Of a stretch of 64,000 nucleotides of DNA, positions 27,018-44,161 are shown piece by piece. The notes under the pieces were generated by a model. The model worked only from the letters and a program-made list of their open reading frames with translations. It was not told the DNA's origin and did no database searches. Each line of letters begins with the position of its first letter. The first letter of the stretch is position 1. The stretch covers positions 1 to 64,000 of the forward strand of contig JAFYZU010000013.1 of NCBI GenBank assembly GCA_017548565.1, written 5' to 3'. This stretch comes from Treponema sp. Its GTDB lineage: Bacteria > Spirochaetota > Spirochaetia > Treponematales > Treponemataceae. Both the position numbers and the translations under genes were made by a program.

Positions 27018-27090
27018 GGGGATATAGCTCAGTTGGTAGAGCACACGGCTCATATCCGTGCGGTCATAGGTCCGAGTCCTATTGTCCCTA
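27018..27090 (+). tRNA. tRNA with CAT anticodon (elongator Met, or Ile2)
   Basis: A full cloverleaf can be drawn. The acceptor is GGGGATA (27018-27024) with TGTCCCT (27083-27089), first pair G-U. The anticodon stem is CACGG/CCGTG with loop CTCATAT, and the T stem is ATAGG/CCTAT with loop TCCGAGT. The anticodon CAT is at 27051-27053. It lacks the three G-C pairs of an initiator anticodon stem. Met versus lysidine-modified Ile cannot be settled by eye. CCA is not encoded. Confidence 0.9.
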
Positions 27091-30469: not shown

Positions 30470-30497
30470 TAAAGTTTTATTAATACCGTGCCGATAA
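30470..30497 (+). promoter_or_regulatory. sigma-28 (FliA) type promoter for the first flagellin
   Basis: TAAAGTTT (30470-30477) is followed after 12 bases by GCCGATAA (30490-30497), a near-perfect match to the FliA consensus TAAAGTTT-N11-GCCGATAA. The start of transcription would leave a leader of about 150 bases. Confidence 0.9.
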
Positions 30498-30612
30498 AAT
30501 GATTGAACCGCTATGAGTGGATCGACTTCGAAGAAGCAGCATTCAGGTGGTTTTGGCAAAAGTGTGTAGATGTAGCCTTGTAAACGTTTGCACATTTTTG
30601 CATCTTTCCAAA

Positions 30613-30652
30613 CAGAAGAAAGGATTCTTCTGCCCACATTTCCAAGGAGGAA
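30613..30652 (+). promoter_or_regulatory. candidate CsrA-binding hairpin and GGA Shine-Dalgarno of the first flagellin
   Basis: A perfect 8-base-pair hairpin (30613-30620 with 30625-30632) presents AGGA as its tetraloop. 24 bases further on, the ribosome binding site AAGGAGG also contains GGA. GGA in a hairpin loop plus GGA at the Shine-Dalgarno is the arrangement CsrA uses to repress flagellin in other bacteria. csrA and fliW lie 8 kb away in this window. Confidence 0.6.
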
Positions 30653-30655
30653 ACT

Positions 30656-31516
30656 ATGGTTATCAACCACAACATGTCGGCAATGTTTGCCAATCGTCAA
30701 TTAGGTATTACTGGTCTGGGTCTTAACAAAGACATGGAAAAACTCTCATCTGGTGAAAAAATCAACCGCGCTGGTGATGATGCATCAGGACTTGCAGTAT
30801 CTGAAAAGATGCGCAGTCAGATCAGAGGTTTGAACAAGGCTTCTCAGAACGCAGCAAACGGAATCAGCTTCATTCAGACAACAGAAGGTTATCTGCAGGA
30901 AACAACTGATATCATGCAGCGTATTCGTGAGCTTGCAATTCAGGCTTCAAACGGTATTTACTCAGATGAAGACCGCATGATGATTCAGGTAGAAGTTTCT
31001 GCCCTCGTATCAGAAGTTGACAGAATTGCATCTGCAGCTCAGTTCAACGGTATGAACATGCTTACAGGTCGTTTTGCAAGACCATTGGGAGACAATGCAG
31101 TTACTTCATCTATGTGGTTCCATATCGGAGCAAACATGGATCAGAGAACTCAGGTATTCATCGGTACTATGACAGCAACAGCTCTTGGAGTACGCGAAAT
31201 GTCTACTGAAGCTAAACTCTCTCTCTCTACTCCAGAAGAAGCAAACCGCGCTATCGGTACTATTGATGAAGCTCTCAAGAAAATCAACAAACAGCGTGCT
31301 GATCTTGGTGCTTATCAGAACCGTCTTGAACTTACAATCAAAGGTCTTGACATCGGTGCTGAAAACCTCCAGGCTTCTGAAAGCCGTATCCGTGATACAG
31401 ACATGGCTCATCAGATGGTTGAATTCACAAAGAATTCAATTTTACAGCAGGCCGGTACTGCTATGCTGGCACAGGCAAATTCTCAGTCTCAAAATGTCTT
31501 GTCTTTGCTCAGATAG
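30656..31516 (+). CDS. flaB: flagellin FlaB (first copy)
   Basis: This is a core filament protein of the periplasmic flagella. The 286 residues begin [11 protein letters not shown] and contain the conserved D0/D1 segments ([20 protein letters not shown] near residue 25; [10 protein letters not shown] and [22 protein letters not shown] at the end). The variable central domain of enteric flagellins is absent, as in other spirochaete core flagellins. It carries the [12 protein letters not shown] segment typical of T. pallidum FlaB1/FlaB3-like proteins. It is preceded by a sigma-28 promoter and AAGGAGG. Confidence 0.95.
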
Positions 31517-31528
31517 TGTAATATAATA

Positions 31529-31558
31529 TATATGAAGGTATTAAAGTACCTTCATATA
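31529..31558 (+). repeat. 12-base-pair hairpin after the first flagellin
   Basis: TATATGAAGGTA (31529-31540) pairs perfectly with TACCTTCATATA (31547-31558) around a 6-base loop. No T tract follows, so it may be an mRNA stabilising or pausing element rather than a terminator. Confidence 0.6.
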
Positions 31559-31565
31559 ATTGCAC

Positions 31566-31835
31566 AAATCTGAAAAGCAATTCAGACTTTGAGCTAAATT
31601 ACTGTACAAAATGAGTTGTGAAATATATATGTTCTTTCAGAAACATATTGTTCTTTGAAATAAGTGCAAGCTGTGTTTTTGCAGGTGAACAGCAGAAACA
31701 GTCAGATTAATTTACTTATTCTGTCTGTTCCTGCTGTAAAAGGTCTGAAACTAAATCAGGGGCGCAAAACTGGTTTAGCCTTTCACCTGCGGGACTTGAA
31801 GCATGAGGCTTTAAGTTTTTAAGTAAACATGGAGG
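31566..31835 (+). promoter_or_regulatory. long structured leader of the second flagellin (multi-stem RNA)
   Basis: The 325 bases between the flagellins hold no gene but a chain of stems. Simple hairpins lie at 31566-31589 and 31627-31648. A closing stem at 31681-31689 / 31782-31790 (9 pairs) then encloses two hairpins: 31690-31706 / 31720-31736 (15 of 17 pairs) and 31751-31759 / 31770-31778 (9 pairs). This gives a three-way junction. A further 9-pair hairpin follows at 31794-31802 / 31808-31816, then GGAGG at 31831-31835. ACATGGAGG at the ribosome binding site also resembles a CsrA site. I found no sigma-28 promoter here. Confidence 0.6.
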
Positions 31836-31841
31836 CACAAT

Positions 31842-32690
31842 ATGATTATTAATCACAATATGAGTTCGCTCTATGCTGATCGTGTGTTGAACATTTCTAA
31901 TGACAACATCATGAAAAACATGGAAAAGCTCTCATCTGGTGAACGCATCAATCGCGCCGGAGACGATGCATCTGGACTTGCAGTATCTGAAAAGATGCGA
32001 AGTCAGATCCGTGGACTTAATCAAGCTTCTAAGAACATAATGAATGGAGTTTCATTCATTCAGACAACAGAAGGATATTTGAACGAAACAACAGATATTC
32101 TTCAGCGTGTTCGCGAACTTGCCATACAGTCTGCAAATGGTATTTACAGCGATGAAGATCGTATGCAGATTCAGGTAGAAGTTTCACAGTTGGTTGCTGA
32201 AGTAGATCGCATTGCAAGTTCTGCTCAGTTCAATGGTATGAATATGTTGACTGGTCGTTTCTCTGAAACAGGAGATAGAATCATGCAGATTCACGTTGGT
32301 GCGAATATGGACCAGAACACAAGAATGTACATCGGTACAATGACAGCTACTGCTCTTGGATTAAAGGGTGGCGCTGCAAACGATGAACAGATTTCTATTG
32401 CTACACCTGAAACAGCAAATACTGTAATCGGCACTATTGATGAAGCACTTAAGAATGTAAACAAACAACGAGCCGATCTGGGTGCATATCAAAATCGTTT
32501 TGAGATTGCTGCAAAGGGCGTAAACATTGCTGCAGAAAATACTCAGGCAGCAGAAAGCCGTATCCGTGATACAGACATGGCTACTGAAATGGTTGAGTAT
32601 ACTAAGAACCAGATTCTCACACAAGCTGGTACTGCAATGCTCGCACAAGCTAACTCACAGTCTCAAACTGTTTTGGCTTTGTTGCAATAG
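31842..32690 (+). CDS. flaB: flagellin FlaB (second copy)
   Basis: This second core flagellin has 282 residues and starts [16 protein letters not shown]. It shares most of the D0/D1 sequence with the first copy ([27 protein letters not shown]) but diverges in residues 8-23 and in the middle, where [12 protein letters not shown] replaces the MWFH form and resembles FlaB2-type proteins. Spirochaete filaments contain several FlaB isoforms in one sheath. Its expression is probably governed by the structured leader described above. Confidence 0.94.
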
Positions 32691-32742: not shown

Positions 32743-32777
32743 AATCAGAAGAGGTGCGCCCCTCCTCTGATTATTTT
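32743..32777 (+). terminator. probable terminator after the second flagellin
   Basis: AATCAGA-A-GAGG (32743-32754) pairs with CCTC-C-TCTGATT (ending 32772), an 11-pair stem with one mismatch, followed by a short ATTTT. The T tract is weak. A smaller perfect hairpin lies just upstream at 32722-32737. Confidence 0.5.
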
Positions 32778-37622: not shown

Positions 37623-38309
37623 ATGAAAGCATTAAGTATAGACGGTGCAATAAGCAGAATGACTATTGCCGCAAAAAATGATGATAAGGTATTTACTTCA
37701 ATTTATGATATAGGCATGAAACAATCTGAATCTATTGTTCCTGCAATTGAAAAAGTTTTACAGAAGGTTTGTCTTGAACCAAAAGAACTTGATTATACGG
37801 TAATGTCCATAGGACCTGGAAGCTTTACAGGTCTTCGTCTTGCAATATCCGCATTAAAGGCATTCCAACTTGCATATAATATTCCTGTTTACGGAATTTC
37901 AACTTTAGAAATGTATGAATATCCTTTTTTGAATTTCAATCTTCCTGTCTTAAGTGCAATAGATGCAAATAAGGATAGATTTTATGCACGATTAATCAAC
38001 GATAATAAAACGATTTTAGAAGACGGTGACTGGGAAATTTCAAAACTTACTGATGTTACAAAAAAACTGAAATCGGTAATTCTTGCAGGACCAGATTGTA
38101 AAAAGCTTGAACAGTTTATAAAAGAAAAAAACAGAAAAATCAATGTTTTATATTCAAAAACTCAAATGGTAACTACTGATTCACTGTTTGCACTTGCAGA
38201 AAAAAATATAGCCGACGATAATCCCCCGTTAAGAGATTTCGACGGCCCTGTATATCTTCGTGCAAGTGAAGCAGAAATAAAGTTTAATTCTACTTCTTCA
38301 AAAGCTTAG
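37623..38309 (+). CDS. tsaB: tRNA threonylcarbamoyladenosine biosynthesis protein TsaB
   Basis: TsaB is the non-catalytic ASKHA-fold partner of TsaD in t6A synthesis. The motif [21 protein letters not shown] is diagnostic. The ATG at 37623 follows AAAGGA and gives 228 residues; an upstream in-frame ATG inside tsaE is unlikely. Its last 20 bases overlap the 3' end of the convergent csrA gene. Confidence 0.92.
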
Positions 38310-38538
38310 ACAGTGCGCTTACTGCATCACGTGCAATAGCATTATCCTTTTGTTCCTGAACGACTGCTGCCTTGTTTTCATTCTGAATAGCATCATAAAC
38401 TTCCTGTCTGAAAACCTTTATTGTTTTAGGAGCTTCAACTCCAATTTTTACCTGATCCCCGTGAACATCAATAAGAGTAATGACGATATCTTCGCCGATT
38501 CTTATTTTTTCATCGATTTTTCTTGAAAGAATAAGCAT
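38290..38538 (-). CDS. csrA: carbon storage regulator CsrA
   Basis: CsrA is an RNA-binding dimer that blocks ribosome access to GGA-containing leaders. The core is intact ([34 protein letters not shown]). It has an extra helical tail, 82 residues against the usual 60-75; such tails form part of the FliW-binding surface in Bacillus-type CsrA. It is last in the flgN-flgK-flgL-fliW-csrA operon. Its 3' end overlaps tsaB by 20 bases. Confidence 0.95.
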
Positions 38539-38981
38539 TATGCATCTCCTTTCGAATTTAAAGCTTCGATGATATTTACTTTAGTAGTCCAACGGTTATC
38601 GTTAATGATTACCTGCATGCATTTTTTGTTTTCCTTGTTGATTACCAGTGGACCCATAAAATTTGCAGTAATAGGAGAACCATCCTGAGGAACAGTTACA
38701 ATCGTCATGATTATAATATCTTCAGGCTTCTTTATATCAATTTTTGAAAGAAGTTCGTCGTCAATATCTGTTTCATAATCGTGACAGATTAAAAAAGGAT
38801 CTACGATTAGAAACGCGAGATTTTTTTCTTCGGTTGACTGAAGCCACAAAAAAGGTTCATATTCTGAATCTACAAGAGCAAATTTTGTATATTCTTCAAA
38901 ACCGAATAAACCTTCAGGAATTTCAAGCAGCTGGTCTTCAGAAATATTGATTGTTCCGCGGGCTTTTGTTACAAGTTCCAT
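38538..38981 (-). CDS. fliW: flagellar assembly factor FliW
   Basis: FliW binds flagellin and, when free, sequesters CsrA, forming a partner-switch that sets flagellin translation. Family features: [34 protein letters not shown] and [17 protein letters not shown]. The 147 residues are normal length. The stop overlaps the csrA start, giving tight co-translation. Confidence 0.93.
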
Positions 38982-38990
38982 TTTTTACTC

Positions 38991-40235
38991 CTAGCGCATA
39001 TAGTTGAGCAAAGTGCTGCTGTAAATTTTTCCAGCCTGACTTAAAGTTGCCTGATTTGTATAATCAAGCATTTTAAGATCTGTTATTGCTTTTGTATAAT
39101 CAATATCACCTTCGCGTGAAACTAATTGAGTTACATCTACAATCTGTTTTGAGTTACGCATTACGTTCTGCTGTGCACGTTCATATTCTGAACCTGATTT
39201 TGCAAGTCTTGTCGTAAGCGCATTGATTCCCTGATCAAGTGAACCAAGCACGCGACCGCCTACTGCTTCCTGATCTCCGCTTAACAACGCATTTCTGAAT
39301 GCTATTACTGCATCAAACATTGAACCGCCTGCAACACGTACTCCATCCTGATAATTATATGGAGGGAACTGACTTTTATCCTTTATAATACCAAGATCCT
39401 GCAATGCGGTTCCGTTCACATCCTGAATCCAGAGCTGACGTGCATCTGTCGTAGAAAGATTAAGTGCATTTCTTACAGGATCAATGCTTGCTTTAACTGC
39501 AGCCGCACTGTCATTAATTTTTGCTATAAGGGCATAAACATTATCACCCCGTGAAATCTGAATTTCAACACCATCGATGCTTACCGAACAGTCTTCGTTT
39601 GCCTGCCATTGAGAAGCATCTCTTGCTCCGAACAGCTGCTGGTTTTCTGCCCAGAAGGTTTTATTACCGGCATTGTCATTTATAAGATATTTATTTTCAT
39701 CAATTTCGACATGATTTACATCGATATTTCCACGGTAACGTACATTCTGAATAAGAGGAACTGCAGAACCTGCTACATTTCCCATATCAATATCGAAAGC
39801 AGTAGTTTTTGTATTAGTGCCTGCAAACAAGGAATTTCCGTCTGCGCTGATTGCGTTTGCATTCTGGATTAGCTGCTTTAATAACTCATCAACCTCGCCT
39901 GCCATATTTTTCAAATCATCCTGATTGTAGATTCCGTTAGCGCCTTCTACTGCAAGCTCACGAATTCTCTGCATTATATCAAGTGAATCAGACATATATC
40001 CTTCGCGTAACGCAAAATTATCGGAAAGTGTCTGGGCATTTTTTTCAAAAGTCTTTACTCTGTTAAGATATGATTCATAGCGGACAAGATGACCTGCAGC
40101 AATAGGATCATCACGAAGCTGCTGGATTTTCTGCTGAGATGATATCTGATTATTTACCTTATTTAATCTGGATTCCTGAAGCCTTAAATTAGACTGAGTA
40201 TCCATGTTATTCATCTGACTGCTTATTCTACGCAT
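38991..40235 (-). CDS. flgL: flagellar hook-associated protein FlgL (HAP3)
   Basis: FlgL joins hook and filament. The product has 414 residues, with flagellin-like N-terminal (RRISSQMNNMDTQSNLRLQESRLNKV) and C-terminal helices (YTKAITDLKMLDYTNQATLSQAGKI). The PLIQNVRYRGN region marks the central domain. AGGAGG precedes the ATG. Confidence 0.92.
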   Translation of the reverse strand: MRRISSQMNNMDTQSNLRLQESRLNKVNNQISSQQKIQQLRDDPIAAGHLVRYESYLNRVKTFEKNAQTLSDNFALREGYMSDSLDIMQRIRELAVEGANGIYNQDDLKNMAGEVDELLKQLIQNANAISADGNSLFAGTNTKTTAFDIDMGNVAGSAVPLIQNVRYRGNIDVNHVEIDENKYLINDNAGNKTFWAENQQLFGARDASQWQANEDCSVSIDGVEIQISRGDNVYALIAKINDSAAAVKASIDPVRNALNLSTTDARQLWIQDVNGTALQDLGIIKDKSQFPPYNYQDGVRVAGGSMFDAVIAFRNALLSGDQEAVGGRVLGSLDQGINALTTRLAKSGSEYERAQQNVMRNSKQIVDVTQLVSREGDIDYTKAITDLKMLDYTNQATLSQAGKIYSSTLLNYMR

Positions 40236-40258
40236 AATAATTACCTCCTTTTAAATTG

Positions 40259-42133
40259 TTATACGCCAAGTCTGTTGATTACTGTATCAATTAAAGAATC
40301 CCATACGGTAATGAATTTTGCTGCAGCATTATAACCATGCTGGAATTTCATTACATCTGCAAGCTCTTCATCAATGTTAACACCGCTGATTGATTCCCTT
40401 AAATCACGTAAATCGCCCATGATTGCATTCTGGCTTAAAAGATTTGTTTCTGCCTGCTCGCCTTTCAATCCGACATTTGTTACGGCATCTGCAAAATAAT
40501 CGTCAAAGGTTTTCATTCCGCCGACCATTATTTTTGTATTTCTGATTGATGCAATTTCTACCGCTGCCCTTCCGTCTCCAAGATTTACGTTTCCTGAAGC
40601 ATCAAGATATGCAGCAGCAACACTCATTACATCATTTTTGATTGATTTATTTACTTCGATGTATGCCGAAGGATTGATGTAAGGGCTAACCGAGAACTGG
40701 GCATTTTCTACAAGTGCATTAACACTGTCGACTTGTGCGAAATCATAAGCATTGTCGGCACCGTTTCCGCGTAAAATTCCTGAATATCCGCTTAAGAAGA
40801 AACCTGAATCTTCAACATGACGTATTACAAAATCAGGATTATCAAGGCTTTGAGAAGTTGTTGCTTTAAGTACAAGATGATTATTTCTGTCAAGATATGC
40901 CTTTACTTCACTTGCAGAATCATTGATTCTATTAATGATTACTTCAACAGTATCTGTATGATGATATACAATTTCAACATTACCTTCTGTTCCGCTTAAT
41001 GTAATTGTACCTTCAATACCAACCTGCTGCTGCATATCAAGGGCATTTGTACCGGTAAATCTGAAAACATAAGACGTATCAAGTTCACCGTCTCCATCTC
41101 TGTCATAATTACCGTTTACATTTTCAACAAAAGGATGTTCAACAAAGAAATCAAGACCGGTAACTCTGTTAGCACCAACTGCATTTCTATGTACATCGTT
41201 TACAAGATCTGCAAAATTCATTGTAAGTGTATTAAGATTCTGAACTTCATTACGGATATCAACATCACGAAGCTCAAGCAATGCACCAAGCTTACCGCCT
41301 GAGAAAAACGCATCATCCTGTGTATCCTTCCATACGACCTTATTAAAACCAGTGTCATCAAAACGAGGAACAAGCTCATACTGACGTGCAATGATTCCCT
41401 GAACAAAAACCTTTCCGTCAACATGTACCATAAATTCATCAGGATCACGCTGATCTGTAGTAATGTTTATTAATTTAGAAAGCTTGTCTACAAGAAGATC
41501 ACGTCTGTCTAAAAGATCATTTGGATTATCACCCATTCCTCGTACACGGACAATTTCGCCGTTTATAGCCGCAATCTGATTCGCAAGATCATTTACCTGT
41601 TTTACGGTTGCTTCAATATCACCGTTTATAATCTGTGTAATACCATCGAGACTTTCCCATCTCTGCTGGATTGAATCTGTTAAAGTTTCACCTCTAGTAA
41701 CAACTGCCTGTCTTGCAGCCTGACTTTCAGGATTTACAGAAAGCTCCTGCCATGCTTCCCAGAATTTATCCATATTTGAACGAACTGAAATATCGTATGG
41801 TTCGTTATAAATCTGTTCAAGCATGGTATAGTAATTACTTCTTGTTTCCCAGTAAGTTTCAACATTTGCCTGGGCAACAATTCTTTTATCAAGAAGCTCA
41901 TCACGGATTCTGTTTATAGAAAGTGTATCTACACCCTGACCAATCTGTCCAGGGCGTTCCGGGCGTTCAAGATCCGGTTTATAAAGAGGATCGAATTCCT
42001 TTATCTGAACTCTCTGACGTGAATATCCTTCTGTATTTGCATTTGAAATATTATGACCGGCTGTTGTAATGGCATCTGTATGTGCCATTATGCTTCTTTT
42101 ACCAAGTTCTATTCCCGAAAATGTAGATCCCAT
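40259..42133 (-). CDS. flgK: flagellar hook-associated protein FlgK (HAP1)
   Basis: FlgK is the hook-proximal junction protein. The 624 residues begin with the rod/hook signature (ALxTxxxNIxNAxTxGYSRQxV form: DAITTAGHNISNANTEGYSRQRV) and end with the conserved helix (GVNIDEELADVMKFQHGYNAAAKFI). The order flgK-flgL is the usual one. Confidence 0.94.
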   Translation of the reverse strand: MGSTFSGIELGKRSIMAHTDAITTAGHNISNANTEGYSRQRVQIKEFDPLYKPDLERPERPGQIGQGVDTLSINRIRDELLDKRIVAQANVETYWETRSNYYTMLEQIYNEPYDISVRSNMDKFWEAWQELSVNPESQAARQAVVTRGETLTDSIQQRWESLDGITQIINGDIEATVKQVNDLANQIAAINGEIVRVRGMGDNPNDLLDRRDLLVDKLSKLINITTDQRDPDEFMVHVDGKVFVQGIIARQYELVPRFDDTGFNKVVWKDTQDDAFFSGGKLGALLELRDVDIRNEVQNLNTLTMNFADLVNDVHRNAVGANRVTGLDFFVEHPFVENVNGNYDRDGDGELDTSYVFRFTGTNALDMQQQVGIEGTITLSGTEGNVEIVYHHTDTVEVIINRINDSASEVKAYLDRNNHLVLKATTSQSLDNPDFVIRHVEDSGFFLSGYSGILRGNGADNAYDFAQVDSVNALVENAQFSVSPYINPSAYIEVNKSIKNDVMSVAAAYLDASGNVNLGDGRAAVEIASIRNTKIMVGGMKTFDDYFADAVTNVGLKGEQAETNLLSQNAIMGDLRDLRESISGVNIDEELADVMKFQHGYNAAAKFITVWDSLIDTVINRLGV

Positions 42134-42157
42134 ATTCTTTTCTCCTGACTGAAAACC

Positions 42158-42604
42158 TTAAAAATCAAGACTGACAACAACACTCTGCGGCTGCGGTTGA
42201 ACAATCTTTCCTTTACTTGAATACACTTTACTTCTTGACTGAGGAAGTGCGTTTTCTATAATACTCTGAATGAATTCTTTAGTAATATTTACATATTTAT
42301 TCAAAACCTGATTTTCTACCTTACACTTAAAGAGCTTTGAACGCAGAAGACCGATTTTTTCAAAATAAGGCTTTAAATCGCTTACTTTGATTGTTTCCTG
42401 AATCAATTCACGCTCTGAATCTACCTGAACGAAATTTTCAGTGATTGCATTTGCTTCATGAATTGTTCTAGTTAATTCTTCCCAGTTTTTATTATGAACA
42501 GCAGTTTTCATTTCGGCTTGAATTGAAATCATCTGATTTAAAAGTTTATCTTCTTCATTGAGAATTTCTTCAAAATCCTTAAGATTAATGCTTTTATCGT
42601 TCAT
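42158..42604 (-). CDS. flgN: FlgN-like chaperone for FlgK/FlgL
   Basis: The protein is 148 residues and almost wholly helical, with heptad patterns through residues 5-115 and a disordered Gln/Ser tail. Size, composition and position immediately upstream of flgK match the FlgN export chaperone family, although sequence conservation in this family is low. It is the first gene after the sigma-28 promoter at 42649-42675. Confidence 0.75.
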   Translation of the reverse strand: MNDKSINLKDFEEILNEEDKLLNQMISIQAEMKTAVHNKNWEELTRTIHEANAITENFVQVDSERELIQETIKVSDLKPYFEKIGLLRSKLFKCKVENQVLNKYVNITKEFIQSIIENALPQSRSKVYSSKGKIVQPQPQSVVVSLDF

Positions 42605-42772: not shown

Positions 42773-42845
42773 GGTGCCTATAGTTCAGCGGTAGAGCGCC
42801 AGATTGTGGATCTGGTTGTCGTGGGTTCGATCCCCACTAGGCACC
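42773..42845 (+). tRNA. tRNA-His (GTG)
   Basis: The cloverleaf is complete: acceptor GTGCCTA with TAGGCAC, the extra G at 42773 facing C at 42845 as expected for tRNA-His, anticodon GTG in loop ATTGTGGAT, T loop TTCGATC. A T10 tract follows directly, but the next tRNA is only 14 bases away. Confidence 0.95.
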
Positions 42846-42859
42846 CCTTTTTTTTTAAC

Positions 42860-42933
42860 GCGCCTGTAGCTCATCTGGATAGAGCACCGGACTTCGAATC
42901 CGGTGGTAGGAGGTTCGAATCCTCTCAGACGCA
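42860..42933 (+). tRNA. tRNA-Arg (TCG)
   Basis: The anticodon stem is CCGGA/TCCGG with loop CTTCGAA (anticodon TCG). The acceptor GCGCCTG pairs with CAGACGC except for one C-A mismatch at the fourth pair (42863 and 42929). The discriminator base is A. The last 22 bases are repeated at 43039-43060. Confidence 0.92.
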
Positions 42934-43060
42934 TAGAGATGATTCTATAACTAAAAATCGTCTAACGGGGACTCAGCGCCGTCCCCGTTGCCCCCTGCTA
43001 ATAGGGTGAAGCCGCATAAGCGGCTTCGGATTGGAGCTGGTTCGAATCCTCTCAGACGCA
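42912..43060 (+). repeat. duplicated tRNA-Arg 3' end flanking GC-rich hairpins (att-like scar)
   Basis: A perfect 22-base direct repeat occurs at 42912-42933 (inside tRNA-Arg) and 43039-43060, 127 bases apart. The interval holds two perfect 8-pair hairpins (42965-42972 / 42981-42988, and 43008-43015 / 43020-43027) and is much richer in G+C than its surroundings. Duplication of a tRNA 3' end is the footprint of site-specific integration. No integrase is nearby, so this looks like a scar or a very small element. Confidence 0.7.
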
Positions 43061-43091
43061 AACACAATTTTTATTTTCTGGAGGAATTTTT

Positions 43092-43664
43092 ATGAAAAAG
43101 CTTATTACAATTCTTTCTGCTTTTTTTATTGCAGGAATTTTATTTACCGGTTGTAAAGAATCTATTGACATTCCGGTTACCAAAGATGATATAAATCTTA
43201 CAGACGGAACATGGAAAGCTACAGTAAAAGAGAAAGAAAACCGAACAAAGAAAGATACATACAATTCAACTGATTATTATTATTCATATTATAGTGATAG
43301 TAAATCCACTATATTATTAACTATAGAAAACGGATTAATTTTAGACATCTGTTATTCGGCGGATTTATATTATACAGTTACTTTTACAGAAGACACGCCG
43401 GAAGGGGCAATAACTGATTATATAAAAAGTTATAAAGATTCTTACTGGACAAGAAACGGGTATATACTTAAACATGAAATTCATGAAAAAGACTCTCATG
43501 ACAGTGATATTACGGGCTGTAAGGCAAGTGATTATATTTCAGCAGTTATTGAAGATGGTTTAAATGTTTATACAAATAAAAATAAAACAAAATACAAGAT
43601 AACATCAAATGGGAAAGAAGGCTATAGTCTGTACAATTTAAACTATATGCTGGAATTACAATAG
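43092..43664 (+). CDS. small lipoprotein of unknown function between tRNA clusters
   Basis: The start has CTGGAGG upstream. A signal peptide with lipobox LFTGC (Cys21) predicts a lipid-anchored protein of about 170 mature residues, rich in Tyr, Lys, Asp and Thr (DYYYSYYSDSKS). No family is recognised. It sits directly after the tRNA-Arg 3' duplication and before a second tRNA cluster, so it may be a late arrival at an integration hotspot. Confidence 0.7.
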   Translation: MKKLITILSAFFIAGILFTGCKESIDIPVTKDDINLTDGTWKATVKEKENRTKKDTYNSTDYYYSYYSDSKSTILLTIENGLILDICYSADLYYTVTFTEDTPEGAITDYIKSYKDSYWTRNGYILKHEIHEKDSHDSDITGCKASDYISAVIEDGLNVYTNKNKTKYKITSNGKEGYSLYNLNYMLELQ

Positions 43665-43700
43665 GTATGTATTTTATCTTAAGATAATTCATTTTATGTC

Positions 43701-43729
43701 TTGAAATGTTTTTATCTTTCTGATATATT
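43701..43729 (+). promoter_or_regulatory. sigma-70 promoter for the second tRNA cluster
   Basis: TTGAAA (43701-43706) and TATATT (43724-43729) have a 17-base spacer, upstream of tRNA-Lys. A 12-base palindrome TATCTTAAGATA lies just before it. Confidence 0.7.
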
Positions 43730-43757
43730 ATTTTTGTTAAACGCAAATGTTTAATTC

Positions 43758-43830
43758 GGGCCATTAGCTCAGCTGGTAGAGCAACAGACTCTTAATCTGT
43801 GGGTTGCAAGTTCGATCCTTGCATGGCTCA
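43758..43830 (+). tRNA. tRNA-Lys (CTT)
   Basis: Acceptor GGGCCAT pairs with ATGGCTC (one G-U). The anticodon stem ACAGA/TCTGT has loop CTCTTAA with anticodon CTT, and the T loop is TTCGATC. The discriminator base is A. Confidence 0.95.
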
Positions 43831-43875
43831 AATAAAAGCTTAAAAGTAGTTTTAAGTCAAAAGCAGGATTTCTAA

Positions 43876-43955
43876 GCGAGAGTGGTGAAATTGGCATACA
43901 CGCTAGACTTAGGATCTAGTGCTTCGGCGTGAGGGTTCAAGTCCCTCCTCTCGCA
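43876..43955 (+). tRNA. tRNA-Leu (TAG)
   Basis: Acceptor GCGAGAG pairs with CTCTCGC. The anticodon stem CTAGA/TCTAG has loop CTTAGGA with anticodon TAG, and a long variable arm is present as expected for class II. Length 80. Confidence 0.94.
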
Positions 43956-43988
43956 AAACACTTTTAATCTTTAAATAACAATTTATCT

Positions 43989-44060
43989 GCGGGAATAGCA
44001 CAGTGGTAGTGCGCCACCTTGCCAAGGTGGATGTCGTGGGTTCGATCCCCATTTCCCGCT
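43989..44060 (+). tRNA. tRNA-Gly (GCC), copy 1
   Basis: Acceptor GCGGGAA pairs with TTCCCGC, the anticodon loop TTGCCAA gives GCC, and the T loop is TTCGATC. It is identical to the copy 101 bases downstream. Confidence 0.95.
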
Positions 44061-44089
44061 CTATTGCAGATCTAATGCAAGAAAAATCT

Positions 44090-44161
44090 GCGGGAATAGC
44101 ACAGTGGTAGTGCGCCACCTTGCCAAGGTGGATGTCGTGGGTTCGATCCCCATTTCCCGCT
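44090..44161 (+). tRNA. tRNA-Gly (GCC), copy 2
   Basis: This is an exact 72-base duplicate of the preceding tRNA-Gly. Short flanking stretches are also shared (ATCTG before, CTCTA-like after), pointing to recent tandem duplication. Confidence 0.95.

Follow-up and report, generated by a model that had tools for sequence, protein, structure and literature searches.

The tandem flagellin locus and its promoters

Two flagellin genes lie in tandem in the window, by which is meant the whole 64,000-nucleotide stretch of Treponema DNA that was analysed. They are flaB1 and a second flagellin gene, separated by a gap of 325 nt and followed on the same strand by flaG and fliD. The gap contains a folded leader, the parts of which are collected in Table 1. 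A strong hairpin (32743–32772) followed by ATTTTG after the second flagellin may be a leaky terminator before flaG-fliD. The minus strand carries a csrA-fliW-flgL-flgK-flgN cluster at 38290–42604, at a distance of 6.5 kb from the element; csrA (38290–38538) and fliW (38538–38981) were assigned by Pfam, while flgL, flgK and flgN were named by eye from the translations. One tRNA gene is found at 27018–27090 and five to six more are clustered at 42774–44161.

Table 1. Genes, promoter and RNA features of the tandem flagellin locus, in window coordinates
Feature	Position	Strand	Remarks
flaB1, first tandem flagellin	30656–31516		Flagellin_N/C domains
Sigma70-type promoter over the flaB1 end	31499–31527	+	-35 TTGTCT (31499–31504), 17 bp, -10 TATAAT (31522–31527); 10/12 matches
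Hairpin after the flaB1 end, near the 5' end of the promoter-derived transcript	31529–31558	+	terminator-like with T run in a GC-rich clade
Upstream stem, outside the modelled element	31566–31590	+	position comparable to a variable upstream helix of relatives
Hairpin A, boxB-like position	31627–31648	+	loop UUUCAGA 31635–31641; 7/7 pairs with double changes
boxA GTTCTTTGAAA, putative NusB/S10 site	31650–31660	+	conservation; rRNA-leader parallel
P1 5' strand (GTGC...CTGTGTTT), anti-SD	31664–31678	+	covariation; rebuilt in other families
P2, closes the P3/P4 three-way junction	31681–31790 (31681–31687 with 31784–31790)	+	covariation, window fold
P3, long hairpin	31689–31737	+	14/15 pairs with double changes
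P4 hairpin	31741–31781	+	bulge UCUGAAA 31744–31750; conserved loop GGGCGCAAAA 31760–31769
P5 hairpin, ANGAN pentaloop	31794–31816	+	alignment of relatives
P1 3' strand AAACATGGAGGCAC with SD GGAGG (31831–31835)	31825–31838	+	covariation, SD accessibility, window fold
Second flagellin, gene controlled by the leader	31842–32690	+	Flagellin_N/C domains

The end of flaB1 carries a sigma70-type promoter, from which transcription is predicted to start near 31534. TTGTCT or TTGTCA stands in the last flaB1 codons, at -18 and with 17-bp spacing, in 68 of 99 relatives, and the -10 sequences of relatives (TATAAT/TATACT-like) fall at +6 to +11 after the flaB1 stop codon; at the 3' end of the second flagellin, which served as control, the promoter signal was much weaker. 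In a GC-rich clade a terminator-like hairpin is followed by TTGACA-17-TAAAAT directly before hairpin A. The flaB1 gene itself has a sigma28-type promoter (TAAA...GCCGATAA; 30470–30497), with 10–12 of 12 matches in most relatives, and the first-flagellin leader which follows it (30498–30655) is also structured (z = -3.3) and contains no boxA. A sigma28 promoter in the gap was rejected, the signal not being above shuffles and the sigma28 sites sitting in the flaB1 leader, as was an intrinsic terminator made of P5 and a U run, since the U run is not conserved.

Fold, distribution and covariation of the leader

RNA folding of positions 31500–31860 gave -115.4 kcal/mol (z = -8.01 versus shuffles) and of the core, 31623–31844, -74.8 kcal/mol (z = -6.35). 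The reverse strand of the leader folds too (z = -5.5), and the direction of the element was therefore taken from gene context and strand-specific conserved motifs, not from energy. The element (approximately 31623–31841) consists, in order, of hairpin A, boxA, the P1 5' strand, P2, P3, P4, P5 and the P1 3' strand. When the window sequence is folded by itself, its minimum-energy structure has a rearranged 5' part (hairpin A and the P1 5' strand), with the SD still largely paired; the assignment of P1 in the window is supported by its relatives and not by the window's own minimum-energy fold.

An earlier note on this DNA, made from the letters alone, had described a structured leader of the second flagellin with at least six stems in the 325-nt gap, a three-way junction and a last hairpin ahead of the ribosome binding site. 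The folded leader is real and strongly conserved; the window fold bears out the number of stems, P2 does enclose P3 and P4, and the last hairpin is P5. The span of 31566–31835 given there was off, the conserved element extending from about 31623 to the start codon with the stem at 31566–31590 outside it. The pairing of the SD, boxA, the loop-bulge pseudoknot and the promoter had been missed. The upstream stem holds UCUGAAA and UUCAGA, the letters of the kissing pair described below, and could compete with the kiss; in relatives this position is taken by a helix of CGGUG/CACCG-type pairs whose loop is rich in pyrimidines (CTACYC in 23 of 99).

The distribution of the element was investigated in two ways. 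BLASTN with the leader matched 22 of 98 related genomes, every one of the 22 belonging to the same genus, and a covariance model (R1), built from 21 leaders (alignment A1), detected the element in 170 of 196 genus genomes overall and in 88 of the 89 that are at least 90% complete, as a rule in one copy per genome. Among named species it occurs in T. socranskii, T. ruminis and Ca. T. equifaecale. The element is directly upstream of a flagellin start codon in all 101 aligned members, and in approximately 99 of these a flagellin stop codon is found 3–320 nt upstream of it. Genome G002 possesses two copies in a row (L122, L200), each before its own flagellin, and one 38-bit match to R1 (L189) has a degenerate-looking 5' side. 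The usual single copy, the fixed position and the lack of a phage match speak against a mobile or phage-borne RNA.

Among 97 distinct sequences, changes on both sides were seen in 48 of 55 pairs, 93% of cells were paired and the covariation score was 0.648, compared with 0.229 for shuffled and 0.07–0.13 for slid partners. These counts ignore kinship, and the alignment was made to fit the structure; for the first 21 sequences, whose alignment did not use the model, the scores were 0.369 versus 0.173. Compensatory change in homologous leaders is thus abundant, and the leader is not refuted on the point that the earlier note had singled out.

boxA, the pseudoknot and pairing of the Shine-Dalgarno sequence

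A boxA is the NusB/S10 site of rRNA leaders, an antitermination signal normally carried on ribosomal RNA. Directly after hairpin A, G.TCTTTGA.A was present in 101 of 101 relatives, the invariant form being GNTCTTTGAMA. In three genomes of the genus the rRNA leaders show the same hairpin-boxA order (GATTCTTTGACA, GATCTTTGAAA and the variant GCTGTTTGACA), and the second base is variable in both the flagellin and the rRNA leaders of the genus. Compared with the gammaproteobacterial consensus, GYTCTTTAANA (PMC5725501), the window boxA has G for A at one position, as in the rRNA boxA of the genus. Genome-wide, GNTCTTTGAMA yielded 17 matches versus 19 for the reversed control, which is chance level; the argument for boxA therefore rests on conservation, position and the rRNA parallel, and boxA as a genome-wide mRNA signal was rejected. 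A nusB gene is present. No precedent for an rRNA-type boxA in a flagellin mRNA was found in the literature searched. A leader boxA in Escherichia coli suhB represses translation by way of the complete Nus complex, even at a distance of 100 nt from the SD; similar behaviour is described for the lambda N leader (PMC5725501).

P1 is made up of GUGC/GCAC, which covaries, and CCAUGU/ACAUGG, the 3' side of which is held fixed by the SD. Comparison of the relatives shows that this closing helix pairs with the second-flagellin SD and would thereby hide it. The SD is predicted to be unpaired with a probability of 0.16; shuffling of the upstream part raises this to 0.31, and the flaB1 SD in these genomes has 0.53. 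R1 also gave three weak matches (31–33 bits) in two other families of the order, each of them preceding the second of two tandem flagellins. At one homologous locus (L267) the strand after boxA differs in sequence yet is complementary to the SD (ACCCUCC with GGAGGGU), and at another (L268) a 12-bp helix of new sequence forms between the strand after boxA and the SD. This rebuilding of P1 with new sequence in other families is the best evidence that hiding of the SD is likely to be a selected feature.

On a plainer account the boxA-like sequence would be conserved only as a part of the fold, or would resemble an anti-SD, and the leader would be an SD-occluding regulator that CsrA, together with FliW, recognises as in Bacillus hag. 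Both genes are in the window, the second-flagellin SD contains AUGGA, the P3 loops of some clades read ACAAGG(A), which is near the CsrA consensus, and CsrA sites have been reported near the flaB1 and flaB2 SDs of T. denticola (PMC9481697). The GGA at the SD is near-universal but paired, and is present in any SD; in the P3 loop AAGG occurs in just 21 of 101 and ANGGA in 9 of 101, making the loop GGA lineage-specific, and a CsrA site in the P3 loop was accordingly rejected as the core function. CsrA targets have no need of 200 nt of conserved structure, and the match to the rRNA-leader boxA in position and variation is left unexplained by this account, which seems unlikely; CsrA/FliW control of the leader is in itself possible. 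P3 loops of the GUACAAGGA type, resembling the CsrA consensus, were seen in several clades (L147, L136, L135 and L137).

In the window the hairpin A loop, UUUCAGA, is the complement of the P4 bulge, UCUGAAA, and the pair covaries, being UUUUAGC/GCUAAAA, UUUCAACC/GGUUGAAA, AUUUAGAC/GUCUAAAU or GUCAAAU/AUUUGAC in relatives. Kissing pairs of at least 7 bp occur in 86 of 101 members, versus a mean of 42 and a maximum of 52 in 500 permutations, and the kiss is present too in another spirochaete MAG (L154). Comparison thus shows a predicted pseudoknot in which hairpin A and P4 kiss across boxA. The P3 3' strand can, in addition, pair with the segment before P5 (UCCUGC/GCAGGA, UCCCG/CGGGA, UUCCCA/UGGGAA). 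This alternative helix reaches at least 6 bp in 38 cases, a modest excess over the permuted maximum of 31; the pairing competes with P3 and a two-state switch was therefore kept as a reading.

Invariant unpaired loops, a pseudoknot and an alternative helix before P5 which is like the outer helix of the Termite-flg model might also be found in a ligand-sensing riboswitch, with the P4 loop GGCGCA, the P5 loop and the kissing junction as a small-molecule pocket and P1 as the expression platform. Riboswitches usually recur upstream of several genes, and this element is confined to one gene context. There is no Rfam riboswitch match, and the support for the alternative helix is modest. In the ratings of Weinberg et al. 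(2010, PMC2864571), Termite-flg is certainly an RNA, is probably cis-regulatory and is probably no riboswitch. A riboswitch is, on these grounds, quite improbable.

Proposed control of the second flagellin

The reading which we favour, at a probability of roughly 0.6, is that the leader is a cis-acting translational control element of the second flagellin, the complete form of Termite-flg RNA, which would combine Nus-modified transcription with default repression. The interpretation of the earlier note is supported in part, and strongly so with regard to a structured leader acting in cis on the second flagellin. The sigma70-type promoter at the flaB1 end, flaB1 read-through, or both, would produce an untranslated leader of about 300 nt. 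As this emerges boxA would recruit NusB-S10 and an rRNA-type Nus complex to RNA polymerase, and we infer that the polymerase would stay Rho-resistant over the untranslated structured leader, so that flaG-fliD downstream would still be transcribed. The boxA-bound complex may also keep the P1 5' strand near the polymerase, where it would capture the SD once this is made; translation would for that reason be low by default, and the second flagellin a minor component which rises when the fold is opened. The fold may be opened by loss of Nus binding, by CsrA/FliW or by P3 3'-strand exchange. The SD-hiding helix is consistent with a control of relative flagellin synthesis.

In T. denticola FlaB3 is a minor flagellin, present at 0.18 relative to FlaA and rising approximately 5-fold, to 0.94, without FlaB1 (PMC9481697), in a flaB1 deletion made with a cassette that may itself alter downstream expression. 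By analogy, a minor FlaB3 is consistent with default repression of the second flagellin. The published forward primer for T. denticola flaB3 had no close match among the element-carrying loci.

The higher FlaB3 level in that deletion (PMC9481697) and the hairpin near the predicted 5' end could also point to feedback by flagellin or a flagellar chaperone at this site, or to an mRNA-stability element, with boxA acting only against Rho. The SD pairing is specifically conserved, which argues against such a role. We know of no RNA-binding flagellin, and this explanation appears very unlikely.

A tentative and less probable extension of the favoured translational control is a two-state Nus-gated switch, with co-transcriptional folding steered by the boxA-bound rRNA-type complex. 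In one state P1 would hide the SD; in the other the SD would be released by the kiss between hairpin A and P4 together with strand exchange, in which the P3 3' strand pairs with GCAGGA ahead of P5. The flagellin ratio might in this manner be tied to the ribosome-synthesis machinery across the spirochete order. In existing laboratory systems the element could be used to examine directly what determines the proportions of the several spirochete flagellins, and whether mRNAs outside the proteobacteria are also subject to Nus factors.

Relation to Termite-flg RNA and other known systems

Screening of the window against Rfam matched no family, nor any riboswitch class. With the Termite-flg model (RF01729), for which membership is set at 40 bits or more, there was no match in the window at gathering or at E 10, and none in its own genome or in any genus genome listed. 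The sister-family homologue L268, which is matched by R1 too, matches RF01729 at 43.8 bits. The statement in the earlier note that the leader belongs to no known class consequently holds for the window and fails for its sister-family homologues, which are Termite-flg RNA. Across the order RF01729 was found in 32 of 149 genomes searched, and almost all of the 32 belong to one family. Of the 26 Termite-flg loci that could be read, 24 have a boxA, or a sequence close to it, 179–224 nt before the SD and followed by an anti-SD, the remaining two being cut by contig ends; the anti-SD helix averages 7.3 bp versus 4.7 when shuffled. Judged from these sequences, the RF01729 model therefore covers the 3' half of the Treponema flagellin-leader element, and the window element is a related, divergent and complete form of Termite-flg RNA and not a formal member.

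Both RNAs lie upstream of the second tandem flagellin, the present element before a flagellin in 101 of 101 members and most Termite-flg loci likewise. Both have a P4 with a GGCGC loop, and may share a subsequent hairpin with a GCA-purine loop before the SD; the GGCGC(G/A)AA loop of Termite-flg is matched by the P4 loop GGGCGCAAAA. The P5 loop is ANGAN here and of the GCA-AGGAU-AGC type in the Termite-flg model, which (106 nt) is without hairpin A, boxA, P1 and the P3 5' strand, and whose outer helix appears to use the P3 3' strand and the segment before P5. Termite-flg was described from the termite hindgut only, whereas the window form is general in Treponema. An orphan motif thereby becomes a full element which almost all of the Treponema genomes examined possess, and to which a definite gene, a promoter, a predicted RBS-hiding helix and a pseudoknot belong.

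With CsrA/FliW acting on hag-type flagellin leaders the element would share post-transcriptional control at the SD, and both genes lie in the window, but its fold is much larger and the GGA loops are not conserved. The leaders of E. coli suhB and lambda N (PMC5725501) likewise have an mRNA-leader boxA upstream of the SD; the flagellin element differs in having no known link to Nus genes, in a boxA-SD distance of about 180 nt and in a large conserved fold which would hide the SD by pairing. The boxB-boxA region of rRNA leaders (rrn nut-like) shows the same arrangement, with a hairpin and, within a few nucleotides of it, boxA, close to where a long untranslated RNA begins, and the strand after its boxA pairs with a distant 3' strand to form the leader-trailer helix (PMC10250234). 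In the flagellin element, in contrast, the RNA is an mRNA, the hairpin loop pairs with P4 and the distant strand is the SD.
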